40,638 bases of DNA from a virus: IMG/VR virus record IMGVR_UViG_3300027793_000016, positions 1 to 40,638 of that record; one strand, 5' to 3'. This document shows, piece after piece, positions 165-40,166 of this stretch; within the stretch, counting starts at the first letter, position 1, and the number at the start of each line of letters is the position of its first letter. Below the pieces are notes generated by a model. The model made no database searches and was not told the origin of the DNA. It saw only the letters and a list, made by a program, of their open reading frames with translations. The position numbers and the translations under genes were made by a program.

Positions 165-3100
165 TCACTCATCTCTACTCACAGCCTCGCCAATCTTGCG
201 GGCTTCACGAAGGACATTTCCCATGACATCGACAGCGCCAGCCTGCGGACCAAAGATCGGCGCAAGAACTGATCCGGTGGCAGACGACAGCTTATCAAGC
301 TCGCTCACCACATCCTCGGGATCATCTGAGAACAGGTCATTGATGTCACGTCCGGCGCGGTAAACGTCAGACGCCACCTTTTCCGTCAGCGTCGTTTCAC
401 CAAAAACGCGCAGCCCCAGGAGGTATTTCACGCCGTATTCAATGCCGCGCCCCAGGACGAAGATGCCGCCGACAGGGCCAAGTGCAAGCGTTGCCGCCCA
501 CTGCTCCCGGCTCCACTCGCGCTCCTCGTCTTCCGGCTTGCCCAGGACGCTCGCCAGGACGGCAACGGAAAGCTGAGTGACCGCCGCCTGCGCCACATGC
601 GCCACAAGGACGCGCTGAATATCCATGGCCTTGTTCTTCGACTTGCCGGACGCCAGCCGCTTGATCGCCATAAGCTCGATGGCCGCAGCCTTGCGCTGAT
701 CGCTGAGGAACATCCACATGGCTTTTGCAAAAATGTTTGTGGACTGCTCGGCAATGGAGCGGTTCACAAGGTCTGAGGGTTGCGCAGACGTGGCAATCAT
801 CCGTTCAAGCCTTTGGGCGGCATAGGCGTCAGCCTGCTCTGCGGTGGCGCTGGAATTCTCCGCGAAGTAGCTACGGCGGTAGTAATCAAAGGCGATGGCC
901 GAACCTATAGCCGTCCAGCCTGCATCCGTCCACGCCATCGGCAGCATCCCCTTTTGCATGAGCGAAATGAGCATGGAGCCGTTCACGCCCGCGTTCTGCA
1001 TGGCAACGCGAGCCTCAGCGGAAAACCCGCCCTGGATACGGCGCTGAATGATGTCACTCTTCCACATGGCCGAAACATCGGAGGCAAACTCCACCGGGCT
1101 CGTCAAGGCGCGAACCAGCCCGACAGAGTAGGCGTGTGCCGGAACATCGGCCAAGAGCGGGTTGAGCGCAGCCGAGCTCTGCTTTGCCACGGGCGAGATG
1201 CGGAACGCCAGCGCCTTAAATGCTCGATACTGCATCAGGTTTTGCCAGAACCGCGACAGAAACACGATGTCTTTCACCGCCCGCGTGCCAGCCGCCTCAA
1301 TGTTGGCAATGTTGGTTTTCAGGTTTGTCAGCGAAGCGTCACCGCTCTTCTGCCGAATTGCGGTCTGCACGTTCTTGTCCAGCATCACAGCCTTGGTGTC
1401 GCGCATGATTTCCGCATGGCTGACCCAATGCGCCACGTTCTGCCAGTGACCAAGAAACACGGCCATGGCGTCCATCCTCATCAGCGGAGACGTGGTATTG
1501 ACTCGCGACTTCGTGAAGCCTGCCGTCATGCCGCTGCTAATGTCGGAGCCGTCCAACTCCATCACGGACGCATCTCCGGAACGGTGGCGATAGATGGGGG
1601 CGTAATTCTTGATCCTTGGCAGCGGAGCGTTGAACAGACGGCGGTAAACAGGATCAATCATCTTTGCCGCCGCGTCGTAGCTAGACGCCATCCAGTTCGC
1701 CAGCGCCACCGCCTGCGGACTCAGGAATTCGTCAAGCTGCCTGAATGAATCTTCCGTCCAGCCGTCGCGCTCCATTTGCTTCCGGCTCGCATCCTGGCGT
1801 GACCACAGCAGATATTGAATCCCCTGCATTTCCGACATGTCGAGCGGCTTTAAATCGCCAGCGTCCAGCACCTTTTCCACCGTCACCGTGCGCTTGCGGT
1901 CAGATGCCGCCCATTCTTCCAGCGCGGTTTCCACCTGATCCTGGCGCAGTCCGGCAGCTTCCGCAGTCATTGTGCCATCGGAAAGCTTAGTCAGCGTCTC
2001 GATGTCGAGTTTAACAGTCTCAGTCTTGCGCCCCTCAGTGATGGCAACGCCGCTCTTTTTCACGGCCTGCATTTTCCCGATGGCGCGCGCCTGGGCGATC
2101 GTGGACTCGGTGTCGAGAATGACGCTCAGAGCCTCGCGCCTCTGCGCATCTATGTTGCGGAGAATGTCAGTCTCCTGGTTGGCGGCGGACACCAGCCTGT
2201 CAGCGAAAAACCGCGTCACCTTGGAATCCTCGCCAAACAGCAGTTCAAGACGCTGGGCAGTCGTCCAGAGAATCGAACCCATCATGCCGCGCAAAGCCTG
2301 CGCAGCCTTTCTGTAATTACTGCTTTGAATGGCCGTCGTTTCGTTGTCTGCCTCCGCCTGCGAAACTTCACGGTCTGGCAGCGCGCCCTTGATGGCATCG
2401 CCGCGCAGTTCATCCAGCGTCGCCTTACGCTCCTCATCCAGAATCTTCTTCCCGAGTTTGCCGGTTGCCACGATGTCTTGCAGCCACTTCATAGCATCGG
2501 CCATGCTCACGCTGTCCTTGTCGCTCCAAAGCTCAAACTGGCGCAGCACGCCAATCTTGGACATGAGGCTTGCAGTCTCGTCGGCGTCCTGGGAATCTGC
2601 GATTGCGGCGTCCAGCGCCTTCTCTTCATTCGCCACCGTCTCAACGTCGGCGTTTCGGATGAAGCTCGCATAGTCCACAAGCTCCGTGTAATTGGAAAGC
2701 AACTTGCCCTCCATGCGGCCAGACGCGCCTTTCTGTGAAGCGTAGCGATCAAGCAAGGAATCAACTTCGGCGGTGATTTCCTTCCGCATGAACTTCTCAA
2801 GCTCGACAACGGCCTTCTGCATGGCCTTCTCGATGGTCTTGTAACGCGCCCGTTCCGTCGCCTGCCCGGTCAGCTTCACCATGCCGCCGGGAACGATCTT
2901 CCCGCGAATCTCCGCAGGGAATGCAGCCATGGCGGTGTTGAACAGCCGTGCGTCACGTTGAAGCGATTCGCGAGGTGACCAATCATCCTGCACCATGTCC
3001 TCGGTTTCATCGCGCCATTGCTGCGCCTCGGCTTTGGCTTGTTCCCGCGCCTTCTTCTCCACGTCCTTCACCGCGCTTTCAGCCTTGGCATACTCGGCAC

Positions 3101-6100
3101 GGGCTGCGCGCTGGCTTGTCACAACGCTATCCAGAGCCTTCCAAAGCGCATCAGGCGTCGGCTCATTCAGAATGCCATCATCATAAAGATTCGCGGCCAT
3201 CACGTCCGGCATGATGCCGGAGCCAGCGCCTGCATACCATGAAGGGGGAATCCATCCCGCCTCATCGTAATCGCCCGCCTTGCCTTTACCGTCAGTCTTG
3301 AGCTTGCCAAGATTTGCCGCCGTCGTTTTCGACATGAGACGGCCATGCGCCCCAAGCATCTGCTTGATGAGCGGATGGTCATTCATCGCGGCCACGCCTT
3401 CGCTCCACGCCATGAGCGTTTCAGGCGTCAGCGTTGCCATCCCAGCATCCACAAGTTCCGCCTCCCGTGTCGCCTGCCGCATCGCCTGCTCCTTGTCCAG
3501 GCTGGCCTTCGTGCGCTTCTCAACCACGGGGCGGATTTTGTCACCCTTCCACGTCACACGCTCGGCGCTCCAGTTCTGAACCAGGCGGTTGATGTCGGAA
3601 AGACTGCGCTGGCGAATCTTGAACGCCAGTTCAGGACGCGCCTGCATGATCGACTCAATGATGTTCGCCAACTGCTCGGCGGATGATGTGGGGGAGAGAC
3701 TAAAGGTTGAGCCAACAGGCTGGCCGTTTTCCTCCAGAATCTTCACAAGCTTTTCGTCGAAGATGACGTAATTACGCGTGCCGTCGCCAGATCCACGGCT
3801 GCCTGCGTCTAGATATTTGATGCCCGGGATTCCAAGTGATGCGAGATATTCAGAGGCTTTTTGTTCGCCCATATCCCACGCAAGCTCTACATAAATGTTA
3901 AGCGGAACATCTGGAAAATCTTCTGATTTACGACCTTCAAGCATCTTGGCAATGCCAGCTTTATCCAAGATGTTTTTCACCCTTTCGCTCTGTTCACTCA
4001 GCGGCTTGTCCCAATCGAGGAAGTCAGCCTCGTCGGGCAAAAGCTCGACGGTGTAGAGGTTGCCGCGAGTTAAATTCCTATCCTTGATTCGATTCCATGC
4101 CGCCCGCCACTCAGCGCCATTTTCCCTAGCGGCAATTTCTGCCGCCGTTCTGCCTTCAGAAAAAAAAGTTTCAGCAAGAGACTTTTCTAAACCTTTGAGA
4201 GGCTTGCCATCAGCCCGCATAACCATGCTTGGAGTTGCTCGCATGTTGGAGTATTCTTCCGCAACTTTACGAGCCTCCGCAAAATAAAGCCCCCACCCGT
4301 AAGCCTGCGCTCCCTCGCCTGTGCCAATTTTGGACGTGGTGAACTTGTCCACTTTGTGCGGCGTGCCGTGATAAGCCGTAATGGAAAATGTGGAAGGTCC
4401 AATTAGTTGAGCGCCATCCGGCATTTGCACCACTGGCGCGGCTGTAATAGGCTTCGCGCGTGCGCCAGGAATACTAAACGCCATCCCATCCGACTCCATC
4501 TGCTGTCGAATCTGATCAGCCTGCGTGGCGTCCTCCCGCGTCTGCTCGGTCAGACCAAGGAGCTTGTCCATGAACTCGGTGAAATCGCCCACAGTGCCGT
4601 TCTGCTCTGCCTGTGAAATAATCTTAGCCGTGGCAATTACGCCGCGAAGGTAAGCGCCTACGGCCTTCACCCATGCGCGGAGACGGCGCAGAAGCGTCAT
4701 TTCCGCAGGCTTGCGAGCCGTCAGCACGGCAGAATCCAGGGCGCGGAGAATAGTCCCGGGTGTCATGCCTGTGCGTTCTCCGGTCTTGTCGCGGCCAATC
4801 CAGGTTCGCACGGCAAGTTCCGAAATGACCTCGCGTAGAAGGTTCTCGTCGCCCTCGCCCTTGGCAACGCGGGATGCACGATCAAACCAGTTCAGTTCTT
4901 CCTGCGTCGCCCTCTTTCCAAGGCGTTTCGGGTCGAGTTGTGAAATCAGGGTGGCGACGGCATTACGGCTTTCCTGCTCGGTGAATTTGCCGAGAGCGAC
5001 ACCTTTGCGCCAGGATGCCTCGACGTGCTCATGCAGGGCGGTGATGATGCGCGGGATGTTCGCCGTTCCGTCTTTGTTTAGACTGCGCATGAAAACGGTT
5101 GAAACGGCCCGGCCAAACTCAAAGTGATTTTCTCCAAGAATGGTCTGCACAACGTCCGCTTCACCCTCTTTGTTAGCAAGCGCCATCTGCTCATCCCGCA
5201 GATTCTGAATGCTGGCAGTGTCTTTAATCTCGCGCTTCTGCCCCGTGGTGGGGTGCACAAAAACAAGGCCGTTTTCACCAACAGTCGGAACCTCTGCCGT
5301 GATTTCAACGCGCTGATCCGGCTTGAGTCGCAGCAGCTCATCCACGGCGGCGATGGTCGTTTCAGCCTCGTATTCAGAGGATGCCATGAGAAAATCACGC
5401 TGCATCTGTGTCGCCACCTCCTGGGACTCCGCCGGGACCGTTGTCCCGTCAGACATGCGGACTTTCCACCCCGACTCATCGCGGATGACAGCAACGCCGA
5501 TATTTTCAGCCTCTGCAGCGTCACGGTTGAGGAGCTTTTGCGCCTCGCGCTGTTTCTCCATGAAGCGAGCCAAAGCGCCAGCCTTCTCTTCTGTGGTGGC
5601 CTTTTTGTCGGATTCAAAGTTCGCCTGGAATCCAGCATCAGCGCCGGACCAGTCGCCAGCCTCCGCCTTTTTGGCGATGCCTTCCGCAACGTCGGGAGCA
5701 ATGCCGGTTGCAACCATGGCGTCAACGTCCATAGCCAATTCTCGGCCACGATTGATGTCACGAATAGAAGCCGCACCACCTCCGACCAGGGAGTAAACAA
5801 GCGCAGGCCCCCAAGTCTGCGAGGCGATTTCGCTGAACTTCGGCATGCGCTTTTCCCAATCCACTCCCGGCATGTCCTGTTCCAGGGCCGTGACAAGCCC
5901 CTCCATTTGCAGCGGGATGAAGCTCTGCGCGTATTCCTCGCCAATCTCACCGGCAGTGCCAGCAGAAGCGCGGATTGCCAGATTACGAGCCGCCCCGGCA
6001 ATGCTCGTTGTGGTCGATTGCAGCCACCTTTGCACGAACGGCAGCTTTACTTTACCAAACGGAATCAGCGCCGTCACAGTTTCAACGGCAGCGTTCAGTG

Positions 6101-7223
6101 GCGCGGAGGCAATGCCGATTGCGTCAGCTTGCTCATACGTCAGCGCCGGATTCTCCATCTTCGCCTGTGCCGCGATGGTATCACGGAAATAGGCAAGGTT
6201 CGCACCGAAACCAAGAGCCGGGTTGATGATCGTCGCGGCGGACTGCGGCACCATGCGGGCAACGTCAATGCCCAACTGTGACCACCATCCGTCTCCCTTA
6301 ATCGGTGAAACCATAGAGTCGGCAACCGTGCGGACCTGCTGCGTCAGGTTGCGCATCTGCTGTGCCTTCGCCATGCGTGCTTCGGTTTCCTTGGACCGCT
6401 CCTTTTGTGCCGCCGCCTCAGACTGAAGCGACACGCCGCCGGACAAAAGCGAGGCAATTTCAGCCGGTGCATTGGCAAGCTGTGACAGCGTTTCGCTGAT
6501 TCCTGCGCCAGTGGTTCCAGCAGCCGCGCCCACCGTCTCAGACATGCGCCCGAACGCACCGGCCAGCTTGGACAGATAGCCTGCCCGCTCCTTGGCATCC
6601 TTTCCTCCAGTCTCGCCAATGGCAGAGATGACCAGAGGGCGCATTTCGTCCGGCACAGCAAGAAGGCGCTCGGCTACGGATTGGAAGGCTTCCGTGGATG
6701 GAATGGCCGATTCCATGGCAGGCTTCAGCTTTGCCGCCGTCTCGTTGATAACGCCGCGATAGGGCGCGAGCTTTACCGCCAGCGCCGTATGGCGCTTCGC
6801 CAAGTCCTTCGTGTAACGGCTGAAAACTCCGCGAAGCTGTGACGGCCCTCGCTTGGCTTCCAGTTCGGCCATGGCTTCCGGCAGTGCAATTCCAGAAAGC
6901 GCCGTCCTTGCCGCGATGTCCGCCGCCTCATCGGCAATCTGGATATGGGATTTGACCAGCGTGTGTAACTGCTCGTCCGACACGTTGCGGGCGTCCTTCA
7001 TCTGGAAATAACCCTGTGCCAGCGCGTCCTTGTCAGCCTGCCACGCGATCGAACCGGAGTTGATGTCACGGCCTGCCGTGCGTGTCATCCAGGCTGAAAG
7101 AGCGATATTCCGGTTCAACCGCAAAGCATCCTCGCCTTGAGGCACAAAAAGCCGGTCAGCTTCAGCAGGCTCTGGAAACTGATCGTTGAGAATCGCCTGC
7201 TTTAGAAGTTCGTCGGGAGTCAT
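165..7223 (-). CDS. Giant polyvalent ejection protein with ART-like domain (T7 gp16 position)
   Basis: A 2,352-residue protein, the largest of the genome and the last gene of the virion block, where T7 has gp16. It is probably packaged in the head and ejected with the DNA. Around residues 945-1195 there is an ADP-ribosyltransferase-like (ART-PolyVal type) segment, seen in AYHGTPHKVDKF, GEGAQAYGWGLYFAE and a closing RNYVIFDEKLVKIL. The C-terminal part, about 1980-2290, resembles the LPD38 domain of phage polyvalent proteins and has hydrophobic stretches (LSVAVLASVLG, LALGPVGGIFVLG). Residues 320-430 are also rich in hydrophobic helix. A possible degenerate zincin motif, HEHVE near residue 729, lacks the second His of HExxH. 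The long middle is helical and charged with no recognised enzyme. The start overlaps the stop of the preceding gene (ATGA). Domain calls are from recalled motifs; the ejection role is inferred from position. Confidence 0.85.
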   Translation of the reverse strand: MTPDELLKQAILNDQFPEPAEADRLFVPQGEDALRLNRNIALSAWMTRTAGRDINSGSIAWQADKDALAQGYFQMKDARNVSDEQLHTLVKSHIQIADEAADIAARTALSGIALPEAMAELEAKRGPSQLRGVFSRYTKDLAKRHTALAVKLAPYRGVINETAAKLKPAMESAIPSTEAFQSVAERLLAVPDEMRPLVISAIGETGGKDAKERAGYLSKLAGAFGRMSETVGAAAGTTGAGISETLSQLANAPAEIASLLSGGVSLQSEAAAQKERSKETEARMAKAQQMRNLTQQVRTVADSMVSPIKGDGWWSQLGIDVARMVPQSAATIINPALGFGANLAYFRDTIAAQAKMENPALTYEQADAIGIASAPLNAAVETVTALIPFGKVKLPFVQRWLQSTTTSIAGAARNLAIRASAGTAGEIGEEYAQSFIPLQMEGLVTALEQDMPGVDWEKRMPKFSEIASQTWGPALVYSLVGGGAASIRDINRGRELAMDVDAMVATGIAPDVAEGIAKKAEAGDWSGADAGFQANFESDKKATTEEKAGALARFMEKQREAQKLLNRDAAEAENIGVAVIRDESGWKVRMSDGTTVPAESQEVATQMQRDFLMASSEYEAETTIAAVDELLRLKPDQRVEITAEVPTVGENGLVFVHPTTGQKREIKDTASIQNLRDEQMALANKEGEADVVQTILGENHFEFGRAVSTVFMRSLNKDGTANIPRIITALHEHVEASWRKGVALGKFTEQESRNAVATLISQLDPKRLGKRATQEELNWFDRASRVAKGEGDENLLREVISELAVRTWIGRDKTGERTGMTPGTILRALDSAVLTARKPAEMTLLRRLRAWVKAVGAYLRGVIATAKIISQAEQNGTVGDFTEFMDKLLGLTEQTREDATQADQIRQQMESDGMAFSIPGARAKPITAAPVVQMPDGAQLIGPSTFSITAYHGTPHKVDKFTTSKIGTGEGAQAYGWGLYFAEARKVAEEYSNMRATPSMVMRADGKPLKGLEKSLAETFFSEGRTAAEIAARENGAEWRAAWNRIKDRNLTRGNLYTVELLPDEADFLDWDKPLSEQSERVKNILDKAGIAKMLEGRKSEDFPDVPLNIYVELAWDMGEQKASEYLASLGIPGIKYLDAGSRGSGDGTRNYVIFDEKLVKILEENGQPVGSTFSLSPTSSAEQLANIIESIMQARPELAFKIRQRSLSDINRLVQNWSAERVTWKGDKIRPVVEKRTKASLDKEQAMRQATREAELVDAGMATLTPETLMAWSEGVAAMNDHPLIKQMLGAHGRLMSKTTAANLGKLKTDGKGKAGDYDEAGWIPPSWYAGAGSGIMPDVMAANLYDDGILNEPTPDALWKALDSVVTSQRAARAEYAKAESAVKDVEKKAREQAKAEAQQWRDETEDMVQDDWSPRESLQRDARLFNTAMAAFPAEIRGKIVPGGMVKLTGQATERARYKTIEKAMQKAVVELEKFMRKEITAEVDSLLDRYASQKGASGRMEGKLLSNYTELVDYASFIRNADVETVANEEKALDAAIADSQDADETASLMSKIGVLRQFELWSDKDSVSMADAMKWLQDIVATGKLGKKILDEERKATLDELRGDAIKGALPDREVSQAEADNETTAIQSSNYRKAAQALRGMMGSILWTTAQRLELLFGEDSKVTRFFADRLVSAANQETDILRNIDAQRREALSVILDTESTIAQARAIGKMQAVKKSGVAITEGRKTETVKLDIETLTKLSDGTMTAEAAGLRQDQVETALEEWAASDRKRTVTVEKVLDAGDLKPLDMSEMQGIQYLLWSRQDASRKQMERDGWTEDSFRQLDEFLSPQAVALANWMASSYDAAAKMIDPVYRRLFNAPLPRIKNYAPIYRHRSGDASVMELDGSDISSGMTAGFTKSRVNTTSPLMRMDAMAVFLGHWQNVAHWVSHAEIMRDTKAVMLDKNVQTAIRQKSGDASLTNLKTNIANIEAAGTRAVKDIVFLSRFWQNLMQYRAFKALAFRISPVAKQSSAALNPLLADVPAHAYSVGLVRALTSPVEFASDVSAMWKSDIIQRRIQGGFSAEARVAMQNAGVNGSMLISLMQKGMLPMAWTDAGWTAIGSAIAFDYYRRSYFAENSSATAEQADAYAAQRLERMIATSAQPSDLVNRSIAEQSTNIFAKAMWMFLSDQRKAAAIELMAIKRLASGKSKNKAMDIQRVLVAHVAQAAVTQLSVAVLASVLGKPEDEEREWSREQWAATLALGPVGGIFVLGRGIEYGVKYLLGLRVFGETTLTEKVASDVYRAGRDINDLFSDDPEDVVSELDKLSSATGSVLAPIFGPQAGAVDVMGNVLREARKIGEAVSRDE

Positions 7224-14314: not shown

Positions 14315-15214
14315 TCAGGGCGTTTCATCGCAGTAGATGCGAACAACCTTCTCGTTCTCGGTGCGGACAGCGCCGAGAAGCATGGTCGTGCGAATCTGGA
14401 GGGCGTGACGGCGCATGGGGAGTTCGTCCATGCGAGTTTTGCGCTCGGCCATGCTGAACTTGACCGCCGACTTGTGGAAGGCGAAGCAAGAACGAACGTC
14501 AGCCGTGCCGGAGACGGTGCCGATGGGCAGACGCTCAGAGCGGATGAACTTGAAGCCAAGGAACGTGTTGATCGTTCCATCGACCAGGGCGCGAATGGTG
14601 TTGTAGTCACCGCTCGTGATTTCCGTGGTGCGGAGCAGGTCCTGCACTTCCTGCGAACCAACCACGATATAGCGGTCAGAATCAGGAACCTCGGACACGT
14701 CCATCAGGTATTTCGCACGGCGAAGTTTGCCGATGGTCATGCCTGCGGAGGCGGGCGAACCGGTTTCCACATAGGTGGCACCGATGCTCTGGCCGGACGG
14801 GAAGTTATCCGTGGTCGTGCCGTCCTCGCCAATGTAGCGGGTGGCGTCAAACGCGGCGATGATCACGTCATCAATGGCGCGGTTGAAGGCCATGGCGTGG
14901 CTGCGAACCTCGTCAGAGGTAGGCAGGACGATAGTCCCCAGAAGCGTCTTGTCGAACTCATCAAAGGTCGTGACCTTTTCGCGAGCGGACTGCGTGAGCC
15001 AGTATTTCGACCCGTCGAACTCGCCATCAGGGGTGTCGCCCTTGCGGGTCGTGATGGTCTGAGCTTCGGAGTCATTGACGAGGTTGAACCACTTGCGCTT
15101 GCCGGTGAAGTCGGCGCGAGTGATGACCGGCAGGAGACGGGTGTCACCCTGCTGGAGAACTTGGTCGAACGATGTGTCGAACATCGTCGGATAAAAGGTG
15201 TCGATTTGGGCCAT
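14315..15214 (-). CDS. Major capsid protein
   Basis: A 299-residue protein beginning MAQIDTFYPTMFDTSFDQ, with TRADFTGKRKWFNLVND and a long central helix region (VRSHAMAFNRAIDDVIIAAFDA), consistent with an HK97-fold coat protein of the short-tailed phage type. It directly follows the scaffold gene, separated by an intrinsic terminator and a promoter-like palindrome, as expected for a gene needing very high expression. Its size is close to many podovirus coat proteins. The 150-nt leader has no Shine-Dalgarno sequence near the ATG (CCTCCGGCTTATGG). Confidence 0.85.
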   Translation of the reverse strand: MAQIDTFYPTMFDTSFDQVLQQGDTRLLPVITRADFTGKRKWFNLVNDSEAQTITTRKGDTPDGEFDGSKYWLTQSAREKVTTFDEFDKTLLGTIVLPTSDEVRSHAMAFNRAIDDVIIAAFDATRYIGEDGTTTDNFPSGQSIGATYVETGSPASAGMTIGKLRRAKYLMDVSEVPDSDRYIVVGSQEVQDLLRTTEITSGDYNTIRALVDGTINTFLGFKFIRSERLPIGTVSGTADVRSCFAFHKSAVKFSMAERKTRMDELPMRRHALQIRTTMLLGAVRTENEKVVRIYCDETP

Positions 15215-15356
15215 AAGCCGGAGGAATGAAAGAAGTTGAAGGGTTGAGCCTGCCTTGCGGCGGGCGGAGGATTGTCATGAATCCCTGTGTCCTTCGGTTG
15301 TCTGCCGTTGGCAGGCCGTCGTTCAGGCGTCCGGTTGTCTCAAAAAGAGGCCGTCG

Positions 15357-15391
15357 TTGCCGCAGATTCTCAAATTTGAGAAAAAAGGCAA
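15357..15391 (-). promoter_or_regulatory. Nested palindrome, copy A (candidate capsid promoter/operator)
   Basis: The inner perfect palindrome TTCTCAAATTTGAGAA (15,367-15,382) is flanked by an outer inverted repeat TTGCC (15,357) and GGCAA (15,387). Read leftward it gives TTGCCT, 17 nt, AATCTG, a weak sigma70-like layout. It lies just after the intrinsic terminator that ends the scaffold transcript and about 150 nt before the capsid start. Copies B (19,527) and C (40,133) share the same architecture. Promoter and operator readings are both open. Confidence 0.65.
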
Positions 15392-17200: not shown

Positions 17201-17551
17201 TCAGTTCTCAGGTTCGGTAACTTGTTTCCGTGGCCGTCCGCGCCTCTTGGGCGCTTCCGGCGCTGTGGTATCCTGCACGGTTGCAGGCTCTTTGACAAGC
17301 TCCATTGACGCCAGCAGATGCCGGTAGATGTCCCGAGGGATGGACTTCTGCCCCTCGTTAAAGGCGCATTTCAGGGAATCCTCATCCTTGAGCGACGGCC
17401 ATGATGTCGAGGCAATCCCGCCCGAAACGCCATTCATCCAGCGGAATAAAACCTGAAAATTATCCTGCTTGAACAGGGTTGAAATAATGGCCGGAATCCT
17501 GCCGCGCTCCTCATCGGTCAGCGGCACAAGCAGTTCGTGAAGTTGAATCAT
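17201..17551 (-). CDS. Hypothetical protein with C-terminal AT-hook-like motif
   Basis: A 116-residue protein. The N-terminal two thirds look globular ([20 protein letters not shown]..., [19 protein letters not shown]). The C-terminus ends in [10 protein letters not shown], an AT-hook-like RGRP core that binds the minor groove of AT-rich DNA in other proteins. It overlaps the portal gene by 4 nt. The motif is visible; a DNA-packaging or nucleoprotein role is only a guess. Confidence 0.65.
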
Positions 17552-19227
17552 GCTCCAATAAGCTCGCGCACTTTGTCCATTCCGCCAGCGTTTTTAACGG
17601 CTTGGCTGCCATCCTTGAGCATTTGAGCCATCGCGGCCTGCTGTTGAGCCTCAGCCCGCGCCTGCCGCATTTGCGCCACTTCCTCGGGTGATCGTAGCAG
17701 TTTCGGGTCGCAGCCCATGAGACGAGCGCCCTCGGTGGCATAGAAGTCAAAGTTGATCGTATCCACGATGTCAGGCACCGCTGGCGCGATAGCCAGCACC
17801 TTTTGCACCTGGGCGTCGGCAGAGCGCAGGCTGATAGCATCCAAGGCAAGGGCAAGACGGCCCTTCATGGAAACCTGCGGGTCTGGCGTCTGGACCATCC
17901 CGGGCGCAACCTGGACAATGGCCTCCTCAGGCGGCGGTGGAAGCATCCCCATCTCAGCCCAAAGACCGAACAGGCGAATCATCATCGGCTGCGTGTGATC
18001 CGTGGAATCACGGTCAAAGGCCGGACTGATCGCCTCAAGCTTCTCGCTGGCAAGCTGTGAAGCCTCGAAAGCCGTCATCTCGCGGTTGTTCGCCGCATTC
18101 ATGGCAAACATCTGAAACATGTCGAGGTGGAAGCGGGACTTGATAACCGCCGCCCTTTGCTTCATGCGCTCCATGCCCCATTCGAGGTTTCCGACGATAT
18201 TCAGTGGCGCGATAGCCTCAGGCCCCATTCCGGACGGGTAAGGGTTGATTGCCCGGGCGGATGTCTTGAGCGTGCCCTCGTAGGTGTCCGGCACCATCAG
18301 CGGTGGAAACACCGTCTTTTCAATGCTGACATCCAGCATCTTCGCCATGAAGTTCATCTGGCGAGACTCAGGCAGGACGGAGAAGCCGGGACCGTAGCCC
18401 CAATTCCCGCCCATCTGCGGGTCGATGCCTTCCCACGTCAGGAAGCGTCCAACCGTGAACGGGAACGAGTCAAACCCGCCCTCCTGCACGAGCTTTTTTG
18501 AGTGCTGCTCGATGTAGTAAGACCCGAACTTCTTTCGCTGGGCAACCGTAAAGCCGGTGCCGTCCATGGGCGCGCCATCACGCTCTTTCACGACGTGAAT
18601 GAAGGTGAACTTTTTGGTGATGTCCTCGCACTCACGCACGTTTTTGGGCAGGTTGTCCTCGCCAAACTTTTCCTCGGCCTGCTCGTGCGTAAGCTCAAAC
18701 TCGCGCATTAGACAGTTCGCCATGCCGTGCTGATTGAGCTGAAAGACATAGCTGCCCGGGCGGAGTTTCTCAAAACGTGTCTGGCCTCGATCGTCCACCG
18801 TGATGAACATGCAGGCGGTGCCGAGTCCCCAAAGATCGAACAGGTATTCATGCCGCTGGGCGTAGTAGTTTGAGCCCGCGATGTATTCAGCGCCGACGCG
18901 TGAACACTCGGCCAGCCAGTTCTTCGTGGCCTCCGAATTGGCAAGCTGTCGAACAGGCGAGAACGCAAACCATGGCGTGCTTTTAGGCGTCGTCCAGGAC
19001 ATGTAACCGGCAACGGCGCGTTCCAGCGAATCCATGGCCGTGATGTCATAAACCCGGGCGTCGCGCTGGTTGTTCGGCGTGTAGTCCTTCTGCGTGATAC
19101 CGGCCTTGCGCGGGAAGATGTGCTCGCTGATCTCCTGCCAGCAAGTGTCCCAGGTCACGCGCTGATCCTTCAGCTTCTCGTAATCCTTGAGATACTTGGC
19201 TGTCTGTTCGGTGCCTTCGGTGTCCAT
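17548..19227 (-). CDS. Portal protein (head-tail connector, gp8-like)
   Basis: A 559-residue protein from the ATG at 19,227. It begins MDTEGTEQTAKYLKDYEKLK, with WQEISEHIFPRKAG and DSLERAVAGYMSWTTPKSTPWF, the signature of podovirus portals. Residues 360-400 (ERMKQRAAVIKSRFHLDMFQ) match the wing/stem region, and the C-terminal 60 residues are a Gln/Ala/Met-rich helix, as in a barrel domain. It forms the dodecameric DNA gate and binds terminase. The start is placed 2 nt after the gp7.3-like gene; a longer frame from 19,272 would overlap that gene. Confidence 0.85.
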   Translation of the reverse strand: MDTEGTEQTAKYLKDYEKLKDQRVTWDTCWQEISEHIFPRKAGITQKDYTPNNQRDARVYDITAMDSLERAVAGYMSWTTPKSTPWFAFSPVRQLANSEATKNWLAECSRVGAEYIAGSNYYAQRHEYLFDLWGLGTACMFITVDDRGQTRFEKLRPGSYVFQLNQHGMANCLMREFELTHEQAEEKFGEDNLPKNVRECEDITKKFTFIHVVKERDGAPMDGTGFTVAQRKKFGSYYIEQHSKKLVQEGGFDSFPFTVGRFLTWEGIDPQMGGNWGYGPGFSVLPESRQMNFMAKMLDVSIEKTVFPPLMVPDTYEGTLKTSARAINPYPSGMGPEAIAPLNIVGNLEWGMERMKQRAAVIKSRFHLDMFQMFAMNAANNREMTAFEASQLASEKLEAISPAFDRDSTDHTQPMMIRLFGLWAEMGMLPPPPEEAIVQVAPGMVQTPDPQVSMKGRLALALDAISLRSADAQVQKVLAIAPAVPDIVDTINFDFYATEGARLMGCDPKLLRSPEEVAQMRQARAEAQQQAAMAQMLKDGSQAVKNAGGMDKVRELIGA

Positions 19228-19229
19228 GG

Positions 19230-19523
19230 CTACGATTTTTTGCTTTCTACGATCATGCGCTTGTGAATCCACGGCATGCTTCCGAGTGCATCATTGCCTT
19301 GCTTGCTGGTGTTGACCATCGTGCCTTCCAAAGCGCCGACACCGAGTTTGCCAAGGCTGCCAAGGGCCACATCAGGCGCAAGCGGGCTGTCGGGGTTGAT
19401 GGTCTTGCGCAGACCCTGGCGGCGGGATGCGGCGACTTGCGCCTGTTCACCCTCGGCGGAGTCGGCGCGGACGGGTGCAGGTGCAGGCGGTGGAGCCTTA
19501 GGTTTCTTTGCTGATCCTCCCAT
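19230..19523 (-). CDS. Small tail/adsorption protein, gp7.3-like by position
   Basis: A 97-residue protein: a basic start (MGGSAKKPKAPPPAPAPV), a polar middle (GEQAQVAASRRQGLRKT) and a Gly-rich segment. T7 gp7.3, just before the portal gene, has similar size, a Lys-rich start and a low-complexity body, and is a tail assembly and adsorption factor. The likeness is in composition and place rather than firm identity. The nested palindrome copy B ends a few bases before its ATG, so this may be the first gene of a late transcript. Confidence 0.5.
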   Translation of the reverse strand: MGGSAKKPKAPPPAPAPVRADSAEGEQAQVAASRRQGLRKTINPDSPLAPDVALGSLGKLGVGALEGTMVNTSKQGNDALGSMPWIHKRMIVESKKS

Positions 19524-19526
19524 GAT

Positions 19527-19560
19527 TTGCCGATTATTCTCATTTTTGAGAATCTGGCAA
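19527..19560 (-). promoter_or_regulatory. Nested palindrome, copy B (candidate late promoter/operator)
   Basis: The inner palindrome TTCTCATTTTTGAGAA (19,537-19,552) is flanked by TTGCC (19,527) and GGCAA (19,556). Leftward it reads TTGCCA, 16 nt, AATAAT, the best sigma70 match of the three copies. It overlaps the last codons of the gene at 19,540-19,881, and the next ATG is about 4 bases beyond the outer repeat. Confidence 0.65.
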
Positions 19561-19881
19561 GCGGAGAATCTTCTTTCGCAGGCGCTGGTAGTCCACCCAT
19601 TTCACCTCCTGGCCTTCGTGCCGGACATAGCCGATCCACTTCCGCAGGCCGGGATTCGGGTCGAGTCGGCACAATTCCGCGATGTCACCAACGGCCAGGG
19701 TGACGAAAAAACCAAGCTGGGCGTGAGCCTCGCCAAAGTCGCGCCAGGTGTCCGTCGCGCAGATGAACGTATCGGGCGTGCAGATGACGTAACCATCCGT
19801 CAGGTGGTCGCGCAGCATGTCCTCGAAATTGGCGATGCCGCACCGATTGGCGGTGATGATGGCTTCGTGAAGGGCTTTCAT
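19540..19881 (-). CDS. Hypothetical protein between terminase and portal genes
   Basis: A 113-residue protein. It starts MKALHEAIITANRCGIANFE and includes TPDTFICATDTWRDFGEAHA and PNPGLRKWIGYVRHEG. The charged C-terminus (YQRLRKKILRLPDSQK) could be a short helix. It starts 2 nt after the terminase stop, so it is co-transcribed. The mixed alpha/beta pattern with buried aromatics suggests a real fold, but I do not recognise it. Similar small genes occur beside terminase in other podoviruses. Confidence 0.65.
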   Translation of the reverse strand: MKALHEAIITANRCGIANFEDMLRDHLTDGYVICTPDTFICATDTWRDFGEAHAQLGFFVTLAVGDIAELCRLDPNPGLRKWIGYVRHEGQEVKWVDYQRLRKKILRLPDSQK

Positions 19882-27121: not shown

Positions 27122-27382
27122 TTAATCTTTTTTCACCAGCAGTAGCGCCTTGTTTATCAACTCCGTCGTAAACTGTTGCCGCCCAGCCTCCAAGTTGAAG
27201 TAGTGCGCCGTGCTAATTCCCAGCCTTTTCGATATGTCTTTGCCCAGCATCCCGGTGGAATCGCGCCATTTCTTGAGCTGCCTGCCCATATCGGCGTGAA
27301 GTTTCACACGGCGGCGCACGGTCTTTTCCAGCAGGTCGTTAATTGCGCCCGCGTTCAGCAGGCTGGTTTCAAGATCAGTCAT
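27122..27382 (-). CDS. XRE-like HTH protein
   Basis: An 86-residue protein. Residues 30-75 carry a helix-turn-helix: GRQLKKWRDSTGMLGKDISK, RLGISTAHYFNLEAGRQQFT. The N-terminal part is a helix (SLLNAGAINDLLEKTVRRRV). The start overlaps the VRR-NUC stop by 8 nt. It could be a regulator of the early genes or a DNA-binding accessory. No dimerisation or repressor-cleavage domain is present, so it is not a cI-type repressor. Confidence 0.65.
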   Translation of the reverse strand: MTDLETSLLNAGAINDLLEKTVRRRVKLHADMGRQLKKWRDSTGMLGKDISKRLGISTAHYFNLEAGRQQFTTELINKALLLVKKD

Positions 27383-32241: not shown

Positions 32242-32304
32242 TCATCTTTTTTCACCTTGGCTGTTGACTCGGGAGTTTTGCCATGCGTTCATGCAGCCTT
32301 CACC

Positions 32305-34494
32305 ATGGACTACGATTCATTCATCAAAAACAAGACACGCCGTGCCGAAAGCCACGGATTCGATCCTCTCTCAATCACCGCCCCTCTTTTCCCGTGGCAG
32401 CGCCATGTTGTTGAATGGGCGATCAAGAAAGGCCGCGCCGCCCTCTTTGAGGATTGCGGACTCGGCAAGACTGCGCAGCAACTGGAATGGGCCTCGCAAG
32501 TCTGCCGTCACACTGGCGGCAGCGTGCTTATTCTGACGCCTCTCGCGGTGGCGCACCAGACATCCCATGAGGCTGACAAGTTCGGCCTTGTCGCCAAGGT
32601 TGCGGAATCCGCCGATGACATCGACGCGCCCGGCATCTGGATCACGAATTACGAGAAGCTAGAGAAATTCGACTGCTCGCAATTCGTCGGCGTCGTGCTC
32701 GATGAATCCAGCATTTTGAAAAACTTCACCGGCAAGATGCGCAAGCTGCTGACCGAGACTTTCAGCGAGACTCCATATCGCCTTTGCTGCACGGCCACGC
32801 CGTCGCCAAACGATTACACCGAGTTCGGGCAGCACGCCGACTTCCTGGGCGTCTGCACGCCAGCGCAAATGCTCGCCACGTTCTTCATCAATGACACGTT
32901 CAACACTGGAGACTGGCGCTTGAAAAAGCATGCCGAGTCTGAATTTTGGGCATGGCTGGCGTCCTGGGCGGCATGCGTGTCGAAGCCTTCCGACCTTGAA
33001 TTTGATGATGCCGGATACATTCTGCCGTCGCTCAACCTGCAAACGATTATCGTCCAGGTTGATGATTCAGAGGGCGCTCAGGAAGGCGAGCTTTTCAGGC
33101 ACGCCACACTTTCAGCAACCACGATGCACCAGGAAATGCGCGTGACCGCACCTCAGCGTGTCGCGCATGTTGCCGAGCTTGTGAACAATTCCAGCGAGCC
33201 GTGGATCGTCTGGTGCAACACGAACGACGAGAGCGAGCAACTTGCGGCGTCCATTCCTGATGCCGTGGAAGTCAAGGGCAGCGATACCGCAAAGCAGAAG
33301 GAAGAGCGCATTGACGCGTTCACCGAGGGGCGCGCCCGCGTCATCGTCACCAAGGCTGGAATTGCAGGTTACGGCCTCAACTGGCAGCATTGCAGGAACG
33401 TCGCCTTTGTTGGGCTGTCTTACTCTTTCGAGGACTTTTACCAGGCATTGCGCCGGTCTTACCGCTTTGGCCAGACTCAGGAGGTCAATGCCTACATTGT
33501 CCAGGCGTCCACGGAGGGCGCTATCCTCAAAACCATCCAGCGTAAAATCGAACAGCACAAGGAAATGCAGGAGCGCATGAAGCTGGCGGCGTCCGCATTT
33601 CAATCACAGCAAAAGAAACTTACCATGAAAACAGACATCACCACGGCTTGCGGAGAGGGTTGGACGATCCACCACGGCGATTGTGTCAGGGTCGCACGTC
33701 AAATTGAGGATGAATCCGTTGATTTCAGCGTGTTCAGTCCGCCATTTGCGGACTTGTTCACCTACTCGGATGACCTTCAAGACATGGGGAACTGCTCCGA
33801 CATGAGCGAGTTCACGAAACACTTTGATCTTCTCATCGCGGAGATTGCCCGCATCCTCGTTCCTGGCCGTGAGGTCGCCGTTCATTGCGTCGATCTGCTT
33901 TCCACCAAGTGGAAGCATGGAAAAATCGAGTTCCAGGATTTCAGCGGCGAGATCATCCGCGCATTCTGGAAACATGGGTTTCTTTTCCATTCCCGCATCA
34001 CCATCTGGAAATCTCCCGTCACCGAGATGCAGCGCACCAAGGCGCACGGGCTGCTTTACAAGACGCTCACCGCTGACAGCACGGATTCCCGCGTCGGGTG
34101 TCCAGACTATCTGCTGGTGTTCCGCAAGCCGGGCGACAATCCCAAGCCTGTGACCAAGGACCGCAGCCGTTACCCTGTGGACTGGTGGCAAGAAGTCGCA
34201 TCGCCAGTCTGGATGAGTGTCGATCAAGGCCGTGTGCTTAACAAGGACGGTGCCCGCGATCATTGCGATGAGAAGCACATCTGCCCGTTGCAACTGGACG
34301 TGATCGAACGCGCCATCGAGCTTTGGACGAATCCCGGCGATCTGGTTTATTCGCCGTTCACCGGCATCGGGTCAGAAGGCTACGGCTCGTTGACCCTGGA
34401 TCGTCGGTTCGTTGGAAGCGAACTCAAGGAGTCGTATTTCAAGCAGGCTTGCCTGAACTTGAAAAATGCCAAGTCTCAACTCAGCCTGTTCTAG
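32305..34494 (+). CDS. SNF2-like helicase fused to N4/N6-type DNA methyltransferase
   Basis: A 729-residue fusion and the only plus-strand gene. The N-terminal 430 residues are an SF2/SNF2-like ATPase: Walker A (FEDCGLGKTAQQ), motif II VVLDESS (DESS, not DEAH), motif III CTATPSPND, and motif VI QALRRSYRFGQTQ. From about residue 440 a beta-class methyltransferase follows: GDCVRVARQIEDESVDFSVF, SPPF (motif IV, near 477), and SPFTGIGSEG (motif I, near 684) with GSELKESYFKQA. Such enzymes modify the exocyclic N of adenine or cytosine. No nuclease domain is seen, so an anti-restriction modification role is likely but unproven. ATG at 32,305 lacks a Shine-Dalgarno sequence; an in-frame TTG at 32,257 would add 16 unlike residues. 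Confidence 0.88.
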   Translation: MDYDSFIKNKTRRAESHGFDPLSITAPLFPWQRHVVEWAIKKGRAALFEDCGLGKTAQQLEWASQVCRHTGGSVLILTPLAVAHQTSHEADKFGLVAKVAESADDIDAPGIWITNYEKLEKFDCSQFVGVVLDESSILKNFTGKMRKLLTETFSETPYRLCCTATPSPNDYTEFGQHADFLGVCTPAQMLATFFINDTFNTGDWRLKKHAESEFWAWLASWAACVSKPSDLEFDDAGYILPSLNLQTIIVQVDDSEGAQEGELFRHATLSATTMHQEMRVTAPQRVAHVAELVNNSSEPWIVWCNTNDESEQLAASIPDAVEVKGSDTAKQKEERIDAFTEGRARVIVTKAGIAGYGLNWQHCRNVAFVGLSYSFEDFYQALRRSYRFGQTQEVNAYIVQASTEGAILKTIQRKIEQHKEMQERMKLAASAFQSQQKKLTMKTDITTACGEGWTIHHGDCVRVARQIEDESVDFSVFSPPFADLFTYSDDLQDMGNCSDMSEFTKHFDLLIAEIARILVPGREVAVHCVDLLSTKWKHGKIEFQDFSGEIIRAFWKHGFLFHSRITIWKSPVTEMQRTKAHGLLYKTLTADSTDSRVGCPDYLLVFRKPGDNPKPVTKDRSRYPVDWWQEVASPVWMSVDQGRVLNKDGARDHCDEKHICPLQLDVIERAIELWTNPGDLVYSPFTGIGSEGYGSLTLDRRFVGSELKESYFKQACLNLKNAKSQLSLF

Positions 34495-34700
34495 TCTGAT
34501 GCGTGAAGCCTGCGCCACCGTGCAAGGAACTGAGTCAACGGCTCGTCTCCATGCCCGTTCATGGCGCAGGCGCAATTCTTCGCCTCGCAGCAGATGAACG
34601 TGCACCCAGGTTCGTGCTGGACCTGGGGCTTCCCGTCCTTCCTGCGGCGGCACTTGGCCGTTGCGTTGAAGTGATCCGCTATGCGCTGCCAATCGGTCAT
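34491..34700 (-). CDS. Small Cys-rich hypothetical protein
   Basis: A 69-residue protein with MTDWQRIADHFNATAKCRRR, GCTFICCEAKNCACAMNGHG and a helical end (LTQFLARWRRLHASD). Five Cys and two His cluster in the centre, suggesting metal binding or disulfides. Its TAG stop overlaps the TAG stop of the plus-strand gene at a shared CTAG. It overlaps the upstream gene by 4 nt. No family is recognised. Confidence 0.6.
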   Translation of the reverse strand: MTDWQRIADHFNATAKCRRRKDGKPQVQHEPGCTFICCEAKNCACAMNGHGDEPLTQFLARWRRLHASD

Positions 34701-36165: not shown

Positions 36166-36642
36166 TCAAATCAGCTTTTGCACATCGTATCCCACTTCTT
36201 CCATGCGCGTTCTCATTTCTGAGAGAGTCTTTCCAAACGTCACCTGGAAGTGTGGCGTTTCGGGAAAGGATTTCCAGTTGCCAGCCCATTCAATTCCCAT
36301 CTTTCCAGCAATAATGCCGATTTCAGCATAGAGTTTGTCGGCAAGTCCTGGCTGTTTCTCGTCTAGGTAAACGCCGTTTTTGAACAGGCCCAGGTCGATG
36401 GCGAGCCCGTAGTTGTGCCAGGAGGAGCCAGGGCGGGCTTTCGTGACGATCCGCCCCGGCTTCGTCCTTCCCTGCGCATACAACGCAGCCTGTGCAGCCC
36501 ATGAGCGAAGACCGGAGATAACCTCAACCGTGACGCCTTTCGCAGCCATGGCAGCCTCAGCGGCGGCAACAAACGGTTCCAGCTTGGCAAGCGCCTTCTT
36601 GTTGAGGCTTCCCAGATTCTCGATGGTTCGTTTCGTTCTCAT
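36166..36642 (-). CDS. Endolysin, M15-type L-Ala-D-Glu peptidase
   Basis: A 158-residue peptidoglycan peptidase. The zinc site is visible: SGLRSWAAQAALYAQGR, SSWHNYGLAIDLG (SxHxxGxAxD) and EWAGNWKSFPETPHFQ with the last His. These match the VanY-like M15 endolysins such as T5 Lys. There is no signal peptide, so it needs the holin to cross the membrane. The start at 36,642 is coupled to the 39-residue membrane protein (ATGA); an ATG at 36,651 would add three residues. Confidence 0.88.
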   Translation of the reverse strand: MRTKRTIENLGSLNKKALAKLEPFVAAAEAAMAAKGVTVEVISGLRSWAAQAALYAQGRTKPGRIVTKARPGSSWHNYGLAIDLGLFKNGVYLDEKQPGLADKLYAEIGIIAGKMGIEWAGNWKSFPETPHFQVTFGKTLSEMRTRMEEVGYDVQKLI

Positions 36643-38029: not shown

Positions 38030-39355
38030 TTAAGCGGCGACCTCCATAAGGGTAATCGTTGACGCACCACGTTGAAAGGCAGTTGTGTCGGTGTCCGTTG
38101 AACTGCGGTTTAGATATACAGCCCCCGTTGACTGGCTTGCCATTTCGATCTCGTAGGTTTGAGATGATGTTGACGCAGGAGAATCCAGATATGTTACGGA
38201 TGCCGCAACAGAAGCTGAGGAGTTGGGAGCACCGCAAACTGTCGTGACGCGCACTCTGTTCCCTGCCGCATCGCCTTGTAGCAGAGTGGAACCGCTGCGG
38301 GTTAAACGAATCAAGGGCCAGTTGTTTGTTGCGCCACCAACATTTAAAGATACCAAGACCAAAACTTTTGACGTGTTTGCGGAAGGCGTGATGGACGCCG
38401 TGAACACGCTTGAAAAGCTGGTGCCGGTAACGCTGGCCGTGTCCGTCTTGGTCGCCTGGACAACCTGAAGAATTTTGCCGCCCGTCCCAGTCGCAGACAG
38501 CGTGCCTCCGCTGAGGGTCAAGCCGCTGCCAATGCTGATCTCCTCAATGGCTCCCGTGCTTGCCGTGCTGCGCCCAAGAATGCGAGCCGTCGCCATTGTC
38601 AGCCCCGAACCTGTGACCGCGCCTTTCAGCGCATAAATAGCGTTGAGAAGTGTCTTGATCGAACTGTAGGCAATGTTTTTCAGCGTGCCGCCGGACGTGA
38701 CAAAGGCCACTTCATCCGTGTCATCAAGGGTCGTTTCCGTGGTTGCGCCTGAAATGGAGGAGCCGACGTTTCCTGCATCCGTAACATCCGCCGCAGCCTC
38801 GATGCCGTCCAGCTTGGTCTTGTCGGAAGCGGACATGAAGCCAGCGTCTCCTGTGGTGGCGTCCGAGTGCGTGTGCGTGGTGAGCGAATCAACATAGGTT
38901 GCCCATGCGCCAGAGTGGAAAAGCCGCCTGATCTGGCTGCCTGCCGTGCTGTATCCGGTGCCGCCAATGGTGGCCGTGCCGTTGCGGACAACAACCGTAT
39001 AGCCTTTGCCCTCGCTAGGGCTTGGGTCTGTGACGGTTGCGGATGCCACCACGACATAAACCCCATCGTTCGCGGCAGTGAAGTTAGAAGATTTGACCTC
39101 GGCAGGCTGAAGTGCTGTGTCAGCCAAAGCGCCCTGGGCTGCCGTGGCGAAGTATCCTATGTCCTCGGCGGCGGCGGTGCCGATGTCGGCGGGCTGGACG
39201 GCGGTATCGGCCAAAGCGCCCTGGGCGGCCGTGGCAAAATCGCCCGTCGCAGAGTTGGCGGCGGTGCCGAGATTGTTCACAGCGCCAATGACGCTGTTCA
39301 GCTTCGTCCGCACAGACGAGCCGGTTTCACCGTTTGAAATGGTTCCGATAGGCAT
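38030..39355 (-). CDS. Tail fibre protein
   Basis: A 441-residue beta-rich protein. Residues 38-90 have a duplicated motif FATAAQGALADTA(V/L)QPA, common in tail-fibre stems. Then comes THTHSDATTGDAGFMSASDK, LDGIEAAADV, a fibre motif with HxH that may bind a metal. The C-terminal 150 residues (KVLVLVSLNVGGATNNWPLI, ... TITLMEVAA) form a likely trimeric tip or receptor-binding domain. The first 20 residues (MPIGTISNGETGSSVRTKLN) may attach it to the tail. The gene is in its own late operon with small virion genes, away from the gp16-like gene. Confidence 0.8.
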   Translation of the reverse strand: MPIGTISNGETGSSVRTKLNSVIGAVNNLGTAANSATGDFATAAQGALADTAVQPADIGTAAAEDIGYFATAAQGALADTALQPAEVKSSNFTAANDGVYVVVASATVTDPSPSEGKGYTVVVRNGTATIGGTGYSTAGSQIRRLFHSGAWATYVDSLTTHTHSDATTGDAGFMSASDKTKLDGIEAAADVTDAGNVGSSISGATTETTLDDTDEVAFVTSGGTLKNIAYSSIKTLLNAIYALKGAVTGSGLTMATARILGRSTASTGAIEEISIGSGLTLSGGTLSATGTGGKILQVVQATKTDTASVTGTSFSSVFTASITPSANTSKVLVLVSLNVGGATNNWPLIRLTRSGSTLLQGDAAGNRVRVTTVCGAPNSSASVAASVTYLDSPASTSSQTYEIEMASQSTGAVYLNRSSTDTDTTAFQRGASTITLMEVAA

Positions 39356-39507: not shown

Positions 39508-39860
39508 GGGGCGGTGAGAACGACAGAATACACATTGCTCGATGGGCCATCACCAAAACCGTTGAACGGAACGACCCGAAAAGCGTAAGTCTCGCCCGCT
39601 GCCGTGGGGAAAGACAATGTTTTTGAAAGATTGTCGCCTTCCGTGGACGCCAAAGTCTCGGGATTGGAGTCGATCTGAACATAGATTTTATATCCAAATC
39701 CGGCGGAGCTTGTCTTGTTGCTGGCCGTCCATTCCAGAAAGGCGTCAGAAAGTCCTGACTGCGTGTTCACAACCAACACGGGCGCAATCGTCGGCGCAGT
39801 ATTCGGAACGGAGGCAAAAGCAGCCGCAGGCAAAGACGAGCCGAGAGCAAGGGACATCAT
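39504..39860 (-). CDS. Small fibronectin type III-like protein
   Basis: A 118-residue protein. After a hydrophobic Ala/Ser-rich start (MMSLALGSSLPAAAFASVPN), which could be a signal peptide or simply beta-rich, an FnIII-like fold follows: GLSDAFLEWTASNKTSSAGF, YKIYVQIDSN and YAFRVVPFNGFGDGPSSN. FnIII and Ig-like domains often decorate virions and bind cell-surface sugars. It overlaps both neighbours by 4 nt. It is probably a virion surface protein. Confidence 0.65.
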   Translation of the reverse strand: MMSLALGSSLPAAAFASVPNTAPTIAPVLVVNTQSGLSDAFLEWTASNKTSSAGFGYKIYVQIDSNPETLASTEGDNLSKTLSFPTAAGETYAFRVVPFNGFGDGPSSNVYSVVLTAP

Positions 39861-40132
39861 TCAAGCCAGAGGATGACAGCGCCAGACGTAAGGGTGATCG
39901 AACTGCCGCGAACAGGGTAGTAACCAACGGGCAGCGTGGTGGCAATTCCAGCCTCGTCGCCGTCGTAAGCCGTGCCTTCCGGTCCTGCGCCAGTCGGGGC
40001 GACAAGGGCCGAAATGACAGCCTCGGCAATGACCGTGAAGCCGTAGAAGTTTTTGGCCGTGGCGGAGGTGTTCGACACCACCTTATAGCCCTTGGTGGCC
40101 TGTTCCCGCGTGAAGTTGGAAGTTTCGGACAT
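39857..40132 (-). CDS. Small beta-rich virion-associated protein, first gene of the fibre operon
   Basis: A 91-residue protein starting MSETSNFTREQATKGYKVVS. It has a hydrophobic middle (FYGFTVIAEAVISALVAPTG) and ends VGYYPVRGSSITLTSGAVIL. The final part matches a recurring phage pattern (LPxGxYxxxxFxSITLxSGxVI) in small proteins found near tail genes, whose function is not established. The nested palindrome copy C abuts the ATG, so the transcript may be leaderless. Confidence 0.65.
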   Translation of the reverse strand: MSETSNFTREQATKGYKVVSNTSATAKNFYGFTVIAEAVISALVAPTGAGPEGTAYDGDEAGIATTLPVGYYPVRGSSITLTSGAVILWLE

Positions 40133-40166
40133 GGGCCGATTTTCTCATATTTGAGAATGACGGCAA
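40133..40166 (-). promoter_or_regulatory. Nested palindrome, copy C (candidate late promoter/operator)
   Basis: The inner palindrome TTCTCATATTTGAGAA (40,142-40,157) is flanked by GGCAA (40,162). The left arm is GGGCCG in place of TTGCC. Leftward it gives TTGCCG, 17 nt, AAAATC. The ATG of the first gene is only a few bases beyond. It has the same architecture as copies at 15,357 and 19,527. Confidence 0.65.

Follow-up and report, generated by a model that had tools for sequence, protein, structure and literature searches.

A 16-bp palindrome, TTCTCA-N4-TGAGAA, is found in the spacer of predicted promoters ahead of the capsid, portal and fibre gene blocks of a podovirus-like phage. On comparative sequence evidence, this element is real, conserved and regulatory: a promoter plus an operator. 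It is new in sequence and setting, and familiar in kind. The sites are probably sigma70-type promoters carrying a dimer operator in their spacer, by which the capsid, portal and fibre blocks would be coordinated, repression being the likeliest action. The palindrome is very probably the docking site of a regulator that would time the building of phage particles. The evidence for this reading, all of it seen in the compared sequences, is recurrence at orthologous sites, the geometry of the promoters, the concerted change of two sites and leader covariation.

The window (the whole stretch of DNA that was analysed) is an IMG/VR virus record of 40,638 bp with a 127-bp repeat at its ends. Its gene content is that of a podovirus-like phage. 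The structural genes are found in a leftward block: terminase, gp7.3-like, portal, protease/scaffold-like, capsid, tail tubes and internal virion proteins. Other encoded proteins: RecE/RecT-like proteins, a replication-initiation protein, a primase/helicase and a SNF2-methyltransferase fusion. The window proteins that were scanned did not include a single-subunit RNA polymerase. The isolates with the best capsid and portal matches include HTVC010P-type pelagiphages (26-38% protein identity). No DNA-level match to the 14-20.5 kb stretch was found among annotated phages.

TTCTCA-N4-TGAGAA has exactly three exact matches in the window and none in 100 dinucleotide shuffles, which bears out the three copies reported in the initial annotation. 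TTCTCA is the sole arm occurring three times among the 12 perfect 6-N4-6 inverted repeats of the window. All three loops are of 4 nt, and not of 4-5 bases as first described. Copy A (15367..15382; TTCTCAAATTTGAGAA), the operator candidate ahead of the major capsid gene (14315..15214, - strand; phrog_3437, E 3.6e-60), follows a strong intrinsic-terminator-like hairpin with a T tail (15433-15406, - strand; pattern-based), located just before the capsid promoter as had been proposed. Copy B (19537..19552; TTCTCATTTTTGAGAA) is followed by a gp7.3-like small gene (19230..19523, - strand; ATG 9 nt past the -10) and then by the portal / head-tail connector gene (17548..19272, - strand; phrog_332, E 1.1e-94). 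Copy C (40142..40157; TTCTCATATTTGAGAA) precedes a 91-aa small gene that heads the virion/fibre block (39857..40132, - strand; an ORF whose orthologs start identically). A fibre-like gene (38030..39355, - strand) comes after the small virion genes. The gene blocks assigned to the three copies are thus as originally claimed. Their upstream position needs one amendment: copy B lies partly within a gene, its TGA half serving as the stop codon of the preceding conserved small gene (19540..19881, - strand). Some of the conservation of copy B may therefore be coding. The outer TTGCC/GGCAA inverted repeat that had been described around the palindrome is complete at copies A and B, but copy C has GGGCC on one side. 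In relatives, TTGC is kept on the -35 side, away from the gene, and the other outer arm is lost. Because the -35 half alone is conserved, inclusion of the outer repeat in the symmetric element is not supported; the TTGC is best taken as a -35 box. A fourth near-copy at 36210 (1 mismatch), located within the endolysin gene and lacking a counterpart in the relative G001, was treated as chance.

Read leftward, each site has the same layout, in which TTGC is followed by a 16-bp spacer and a weak -10 and the palindrome lies within. The candidate boxes of the capsid promoter are TTGCCT (-35; 15386..15391, - strand), whose TTGC is conserved ahead of the capsid gene throughout lineages A to H, and GAATCT (-10; 15364..15369, - strand), with TGA just ahead and a 16-bp spacer. 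Those of the gp7.3-like/portal promoter are TTGCCA (19555..19560, - strand) and AATAAT (19533..19538, - strand), which together give 10/12 consensus matches. Those of the virion/fibre block promoter are TTGCCG (40161..40166, - strand) and GAAAAT (40139..40144, - strand), the latter 6 nt before an ATG at which a leaderless start is expected. When TTGC is taken as the -35, agreement with TATAAT is best at a 16-bp spacer (mean 3.24 of 6 over 21 sites; 1.2-2.1 at spacers of 15, 17 and 18 bp). The arrangement first noted, TTGCC followed after 16-17 nt by a -10-like box, is retained in this form, with 16 bp as the best spacer and a weak -10. The spacer falls within the 16-18 bp that separate the -35 and -10 of sigma70-type promoters, copies A and C agreeing less well with the consensus than copy B. 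The -10 boxes of A and C are poor matches, and a portion of every -10 is dictated by the palindrome itself. In a promoter scan of the region, sites were no more numerous than in shuffles.

Constancy of spacing is stronger support for a promoter than agreement of the boxes. Lineages A, B, C, E and F all have a TTGC-to-ATG distance of 37 nt at the gp7.3-like gene; at the fibre block it is 34, 34 and 33 nt in A, B and E. The offset of the palindrome at the gp7.3 site shifts by at most 2 nt among TTCTCA lineages, and further in F. Since TTGC-to-ATG is constant while the palindrome offset varies, a promoter with leaderless or nearly leaderless starts is indicated. Transcription from sigma70-type promoters starts 6-8 nt after the -10. 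Start codons are located 5-9 nt past the -10 in the window (19523, 40132) and also in L009, L010, L012 and L135. These ATGs would thus lie at, or a few bases past, the expected transcription start, giving (near-)leaderless mRNAs. The gp7.3 gene of lineage D has a longer leader with a ribosome-binding site instead. In L010 (3879-3903), the portal promoter is followed by a different first gene (MADIHDLITPWPA...), whose ATG is again at exactly 37 nt. In L137 (G020), a tRNA-like stretch (GGTTCGAGTCC...) is found in the leader between the portal promoter and the gp7.3-like gene; ARAGORN called no tRNA in this stretch.

A capsid search gave 46 loci at about 71-100% identity, plus more distant ones. 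The palindrome is located ahead of the capsid gene in 49 related loci, many of them near-identical (42 of the 46 capsid loci and 7 loci of the 69%-identity lineage E). Because many relatives are near-identical, these loci are not independent and represent about six lineages, A to F (defined on the capsid tree; the letters are our own). In some D and E members, one arm is TTATCA. The portal/gp7.3 site is found in A, B, C, D and E and is altered in F. At the fibre block, the full motif is found in A and E (in E, in L009) and is degenerate in B and D. In lineage H the palindrome is absent, yet TTGCAA is retained ahead of the capsid gene. Lineage D carries two palindromes in tandem at the capsid site, the second of them 31 bp upstream of the first and beyond the -35, and an extra palindrome over the -10 at the portal site. 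The same inverted repeat is carried by several unlinked promoters, as expected of the operator of a dimeric regulator. A conserved one-mismatch palindrome is found in lineage B (L124, L106, L118, L120), in an intergenic region before replication genes. Because of this site, the set of elements is not strictly late, and the label "late" given at the outset needs limits. Palindromes with one mismatch also occur within the protease and f26 genes of relatives, where they seem to be coincidences of the coding sequence.

The pattern CTTGC-N3-5-TTCTCA-N4-TGAGAA was run against 2.9 million viral contigs (IMG/VR). It gave 77 matches in 74 stretches; the control pattern with reversed letters gave 7 stretches only. 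The capsid-leader, capsid, portal or fibre-block sequence of the group is directly downstream of 56 of the 77 matches, 2 further matches have the capsid leader at a contig end, and 16 come from contigs that do not match the group at all. The initial annotation had held that random occurrence inside coding sequence of related phages would count against the element. The full motif is not scattered in this way, about 58 of the 61 in-group matches preceding capsid, portal or fibre blocks.

In lineage F, the capsid palindrome and the portal palindrome both became ATCATATATGAT. In G019 and G020, TCATATATGA is found at the capsid and portal sites and nowhere else; in G010, whose record starts inside the portal gene, it is found once (capsid). 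On the capsid tree, F adjoins a B member having ordinary TTCTCA sites, which places the switch on a short branch. Sites of a common regulator change together when its specificity changes, as the capsid and portal sites of F have done. A changed or exchanged DNA-binding protein would select one new word at two unlinked sites, so the concerted change in F is as expected for sites of one trans-acting dimer. A search of viral contigs for the F word with TTGC gave, besides F records, mostly unrelated AT-rich matches. Lineage F would represent a natural change of binding specificity among closely related phages, one that could help to identify the regulator.

The predicted capsid mRNA leader (15215..15357, - strand) is a conserved structured RNA according to the alignment and consensus fold of 19 orthologs, in which 8 of the 12 predicted pairs have two-sided compensatory changes. 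Orthologs of the leader are found upstream of the capsid gene in L025-L070 and L164-L178. The leader, of roughly 140 nt, is alignable across lineages A to H. Its small hairpins covary, and GGAnAA-like stretches come after them. In the window and in L072, L073, L074, L164, L172 and L177, no Rfam family reached the gathering threshold; in L025, L034, L045 and L050, no Rfam match was credible. The leader may be a new structured RNA, and it fits a transcript beginning at the predicted start.

From these comparisons, we infer protein binding, direction of control and start sites as follows. Each compact promoter would be read by the host sigma70-type RNA polymerase: TTGC[C/A]N, 16-bp spacer, weak -10, the -10 usually preceded directly by TG. 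The palindrome would fill the spacer as well as the upstream portion of the -10. A dimeric trans-acting protein would bind it and set transcription of capsid, portal and fibre genes together. The initial annotation had offered a late promoter class and a dimer operator as alternatives; the comparisons favour the two in combination. The bound protein would cover the -35/-10 region, which makes repression, until late in infection, its likeliest action. Transcription of the gp7.3-like and 91-aa genes would start at the ATG or no more than about 3 nt from it, near positions 19526 and 40132 of the - strand. That of the capsid gene would start about 143 nt upstream, near position 15357, and its mRNA would open with the structured leader.

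The bound dimer could instead be an activator of weak promoters, at which RNA polymerase would be recruited or reshaped late in infection. The poor -10 boxes and the second palindrome of lineage D upstream of the -35 are in keeping with this, which is nevertheless unlikely: the sole position common to all lineages is the spacer and -10, and a protein bound there normally blocks polymerase; moreover, MerR-type activators that bind the spacer use spacers of about 19 bp, not 16 bp. The blocking position and the extra palindromes of lineage D favour repression over activation, a choice made from site placement with moderate confidence. As for the identity of the binder, it is quite possible, though not the expected case, that a host transcription factor binds a site adopted by the phage, no phage-encoded transcription factor having been found in all lineages with the site. 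The operator-promoter pattern had 40 scattered matches in 84,980 genomes, with no dominant taxon, which argues weakly against a host factor. Site identity also follows phage lineage, F having switched on a short branch.

A palindrome that works in RNA, as a hairpin or processing site ahead of late genes, is highly improbable. A 6-bp stem with a 4-nt loop could form, but copies B and C are upstream of the predicted start, and what is common to the sites and altered in concert is primary sequence, beyond pairing. An RNA hairpin would need pairing and not the same word, so the concerted change of word speaks against this role. Still more improbable is a non-regulatory role of the copies as recombination or module-boundary sequences. 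Their location at gene-block boundaries and the different gene right after the L010 site would suit it, but the fixed TTGC-to-ATG spacing, the concerted change and the loss of the palindrome in lineage H with TTGC kept are not expected of such sequences.

No regulator common to all lineages with the site was found among the phage proteins examined. The candidate binders were rejected according to their distribution. The XRE regulator (27122-27382) was not detected in the close relative G001, which has the same sites. The ribbon-helix-helix protein is limited to B, F and one E record, the GerE-type HTH protein to B, two D records and one E record, and the Cys-rich 69-aa protein (34491-34700) to A, B, D and F. 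The product of gene 19540-19881 is present throughout; judged from its AlphaFold model (pLDDT 88), which has at best weak GNAT-like matches, it does not look like a DNA binder. A capsid-alignment search of genome contigs for the host gave no relative. The only Verrucomicrobia match to the operator-promoter pattern, L201, is inside a gene reading like rpoB (judged by eye).

Sigma70-type promoters with a repressor operator between the -35 and -10 include tetO and lambda PR/OR. The present sites resemble them in their dimer-sized inverted repeat over the spacer and -10 and in the tandem copies of lineage D, and differ in the several (near-)leaderless starts. To our knowledge, the palindrome matches no known operator. 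MerR-type promoters also have a palindrome between the -35 and -10, but their spacer is of about 19-20 bp, in contrast to 16 bp here; no MerR protein was seen among the proteins scanned. Like promoters of T7-type phage RNA polymerases, the element is repeated, phage-specific and located ahead of late genes; unlike them, it is palindromic with sigma70-like boxes, and the window proteins scanned include no such polymerase. HTVC010P-type pelagiphages, the nearest isolates, have related capsid and portal proteins; the distant relatives that were inspected showed no TTCTCA palindrome ahead of the capsid gene. Skadi-1 (HTVC010P type) has no RNA polymerase of its own and is presumed to rely on the host enzyme and sigma70 promoters (PMC10504331). 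A literature search found nothing on the element or on late-gene timing in this uncultured group.

Phages without their own RNA polymerase must time their late genes via the host polymerase. The element would define a small regulon and predicts exact transcription starts, several of them leaderless. Tentatively, these features could together form an undescribed circuit for late-gene control in a group of uncultured podoviruses: operator-bearing promoters with leaderless starts, a regulator outside recognised DNA-binding families, a new capsid-leader RNA and one lineage that has passed through a specificity switch at known sites.

Two other genes of the window have unusual features. The 2352-aa internal virion-type protein (165-7223, - strand) resembles polyvalent ADP-ribosyltransferases weakly, with a match that does not reach the Pfam cut-off. 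On the opposite strand, one gene (32257-34494, + strand) fuses a SNF2-like helicase with a DNA N6/N4 methyltransferase domain; in some relatives, it is found as two separate genes.
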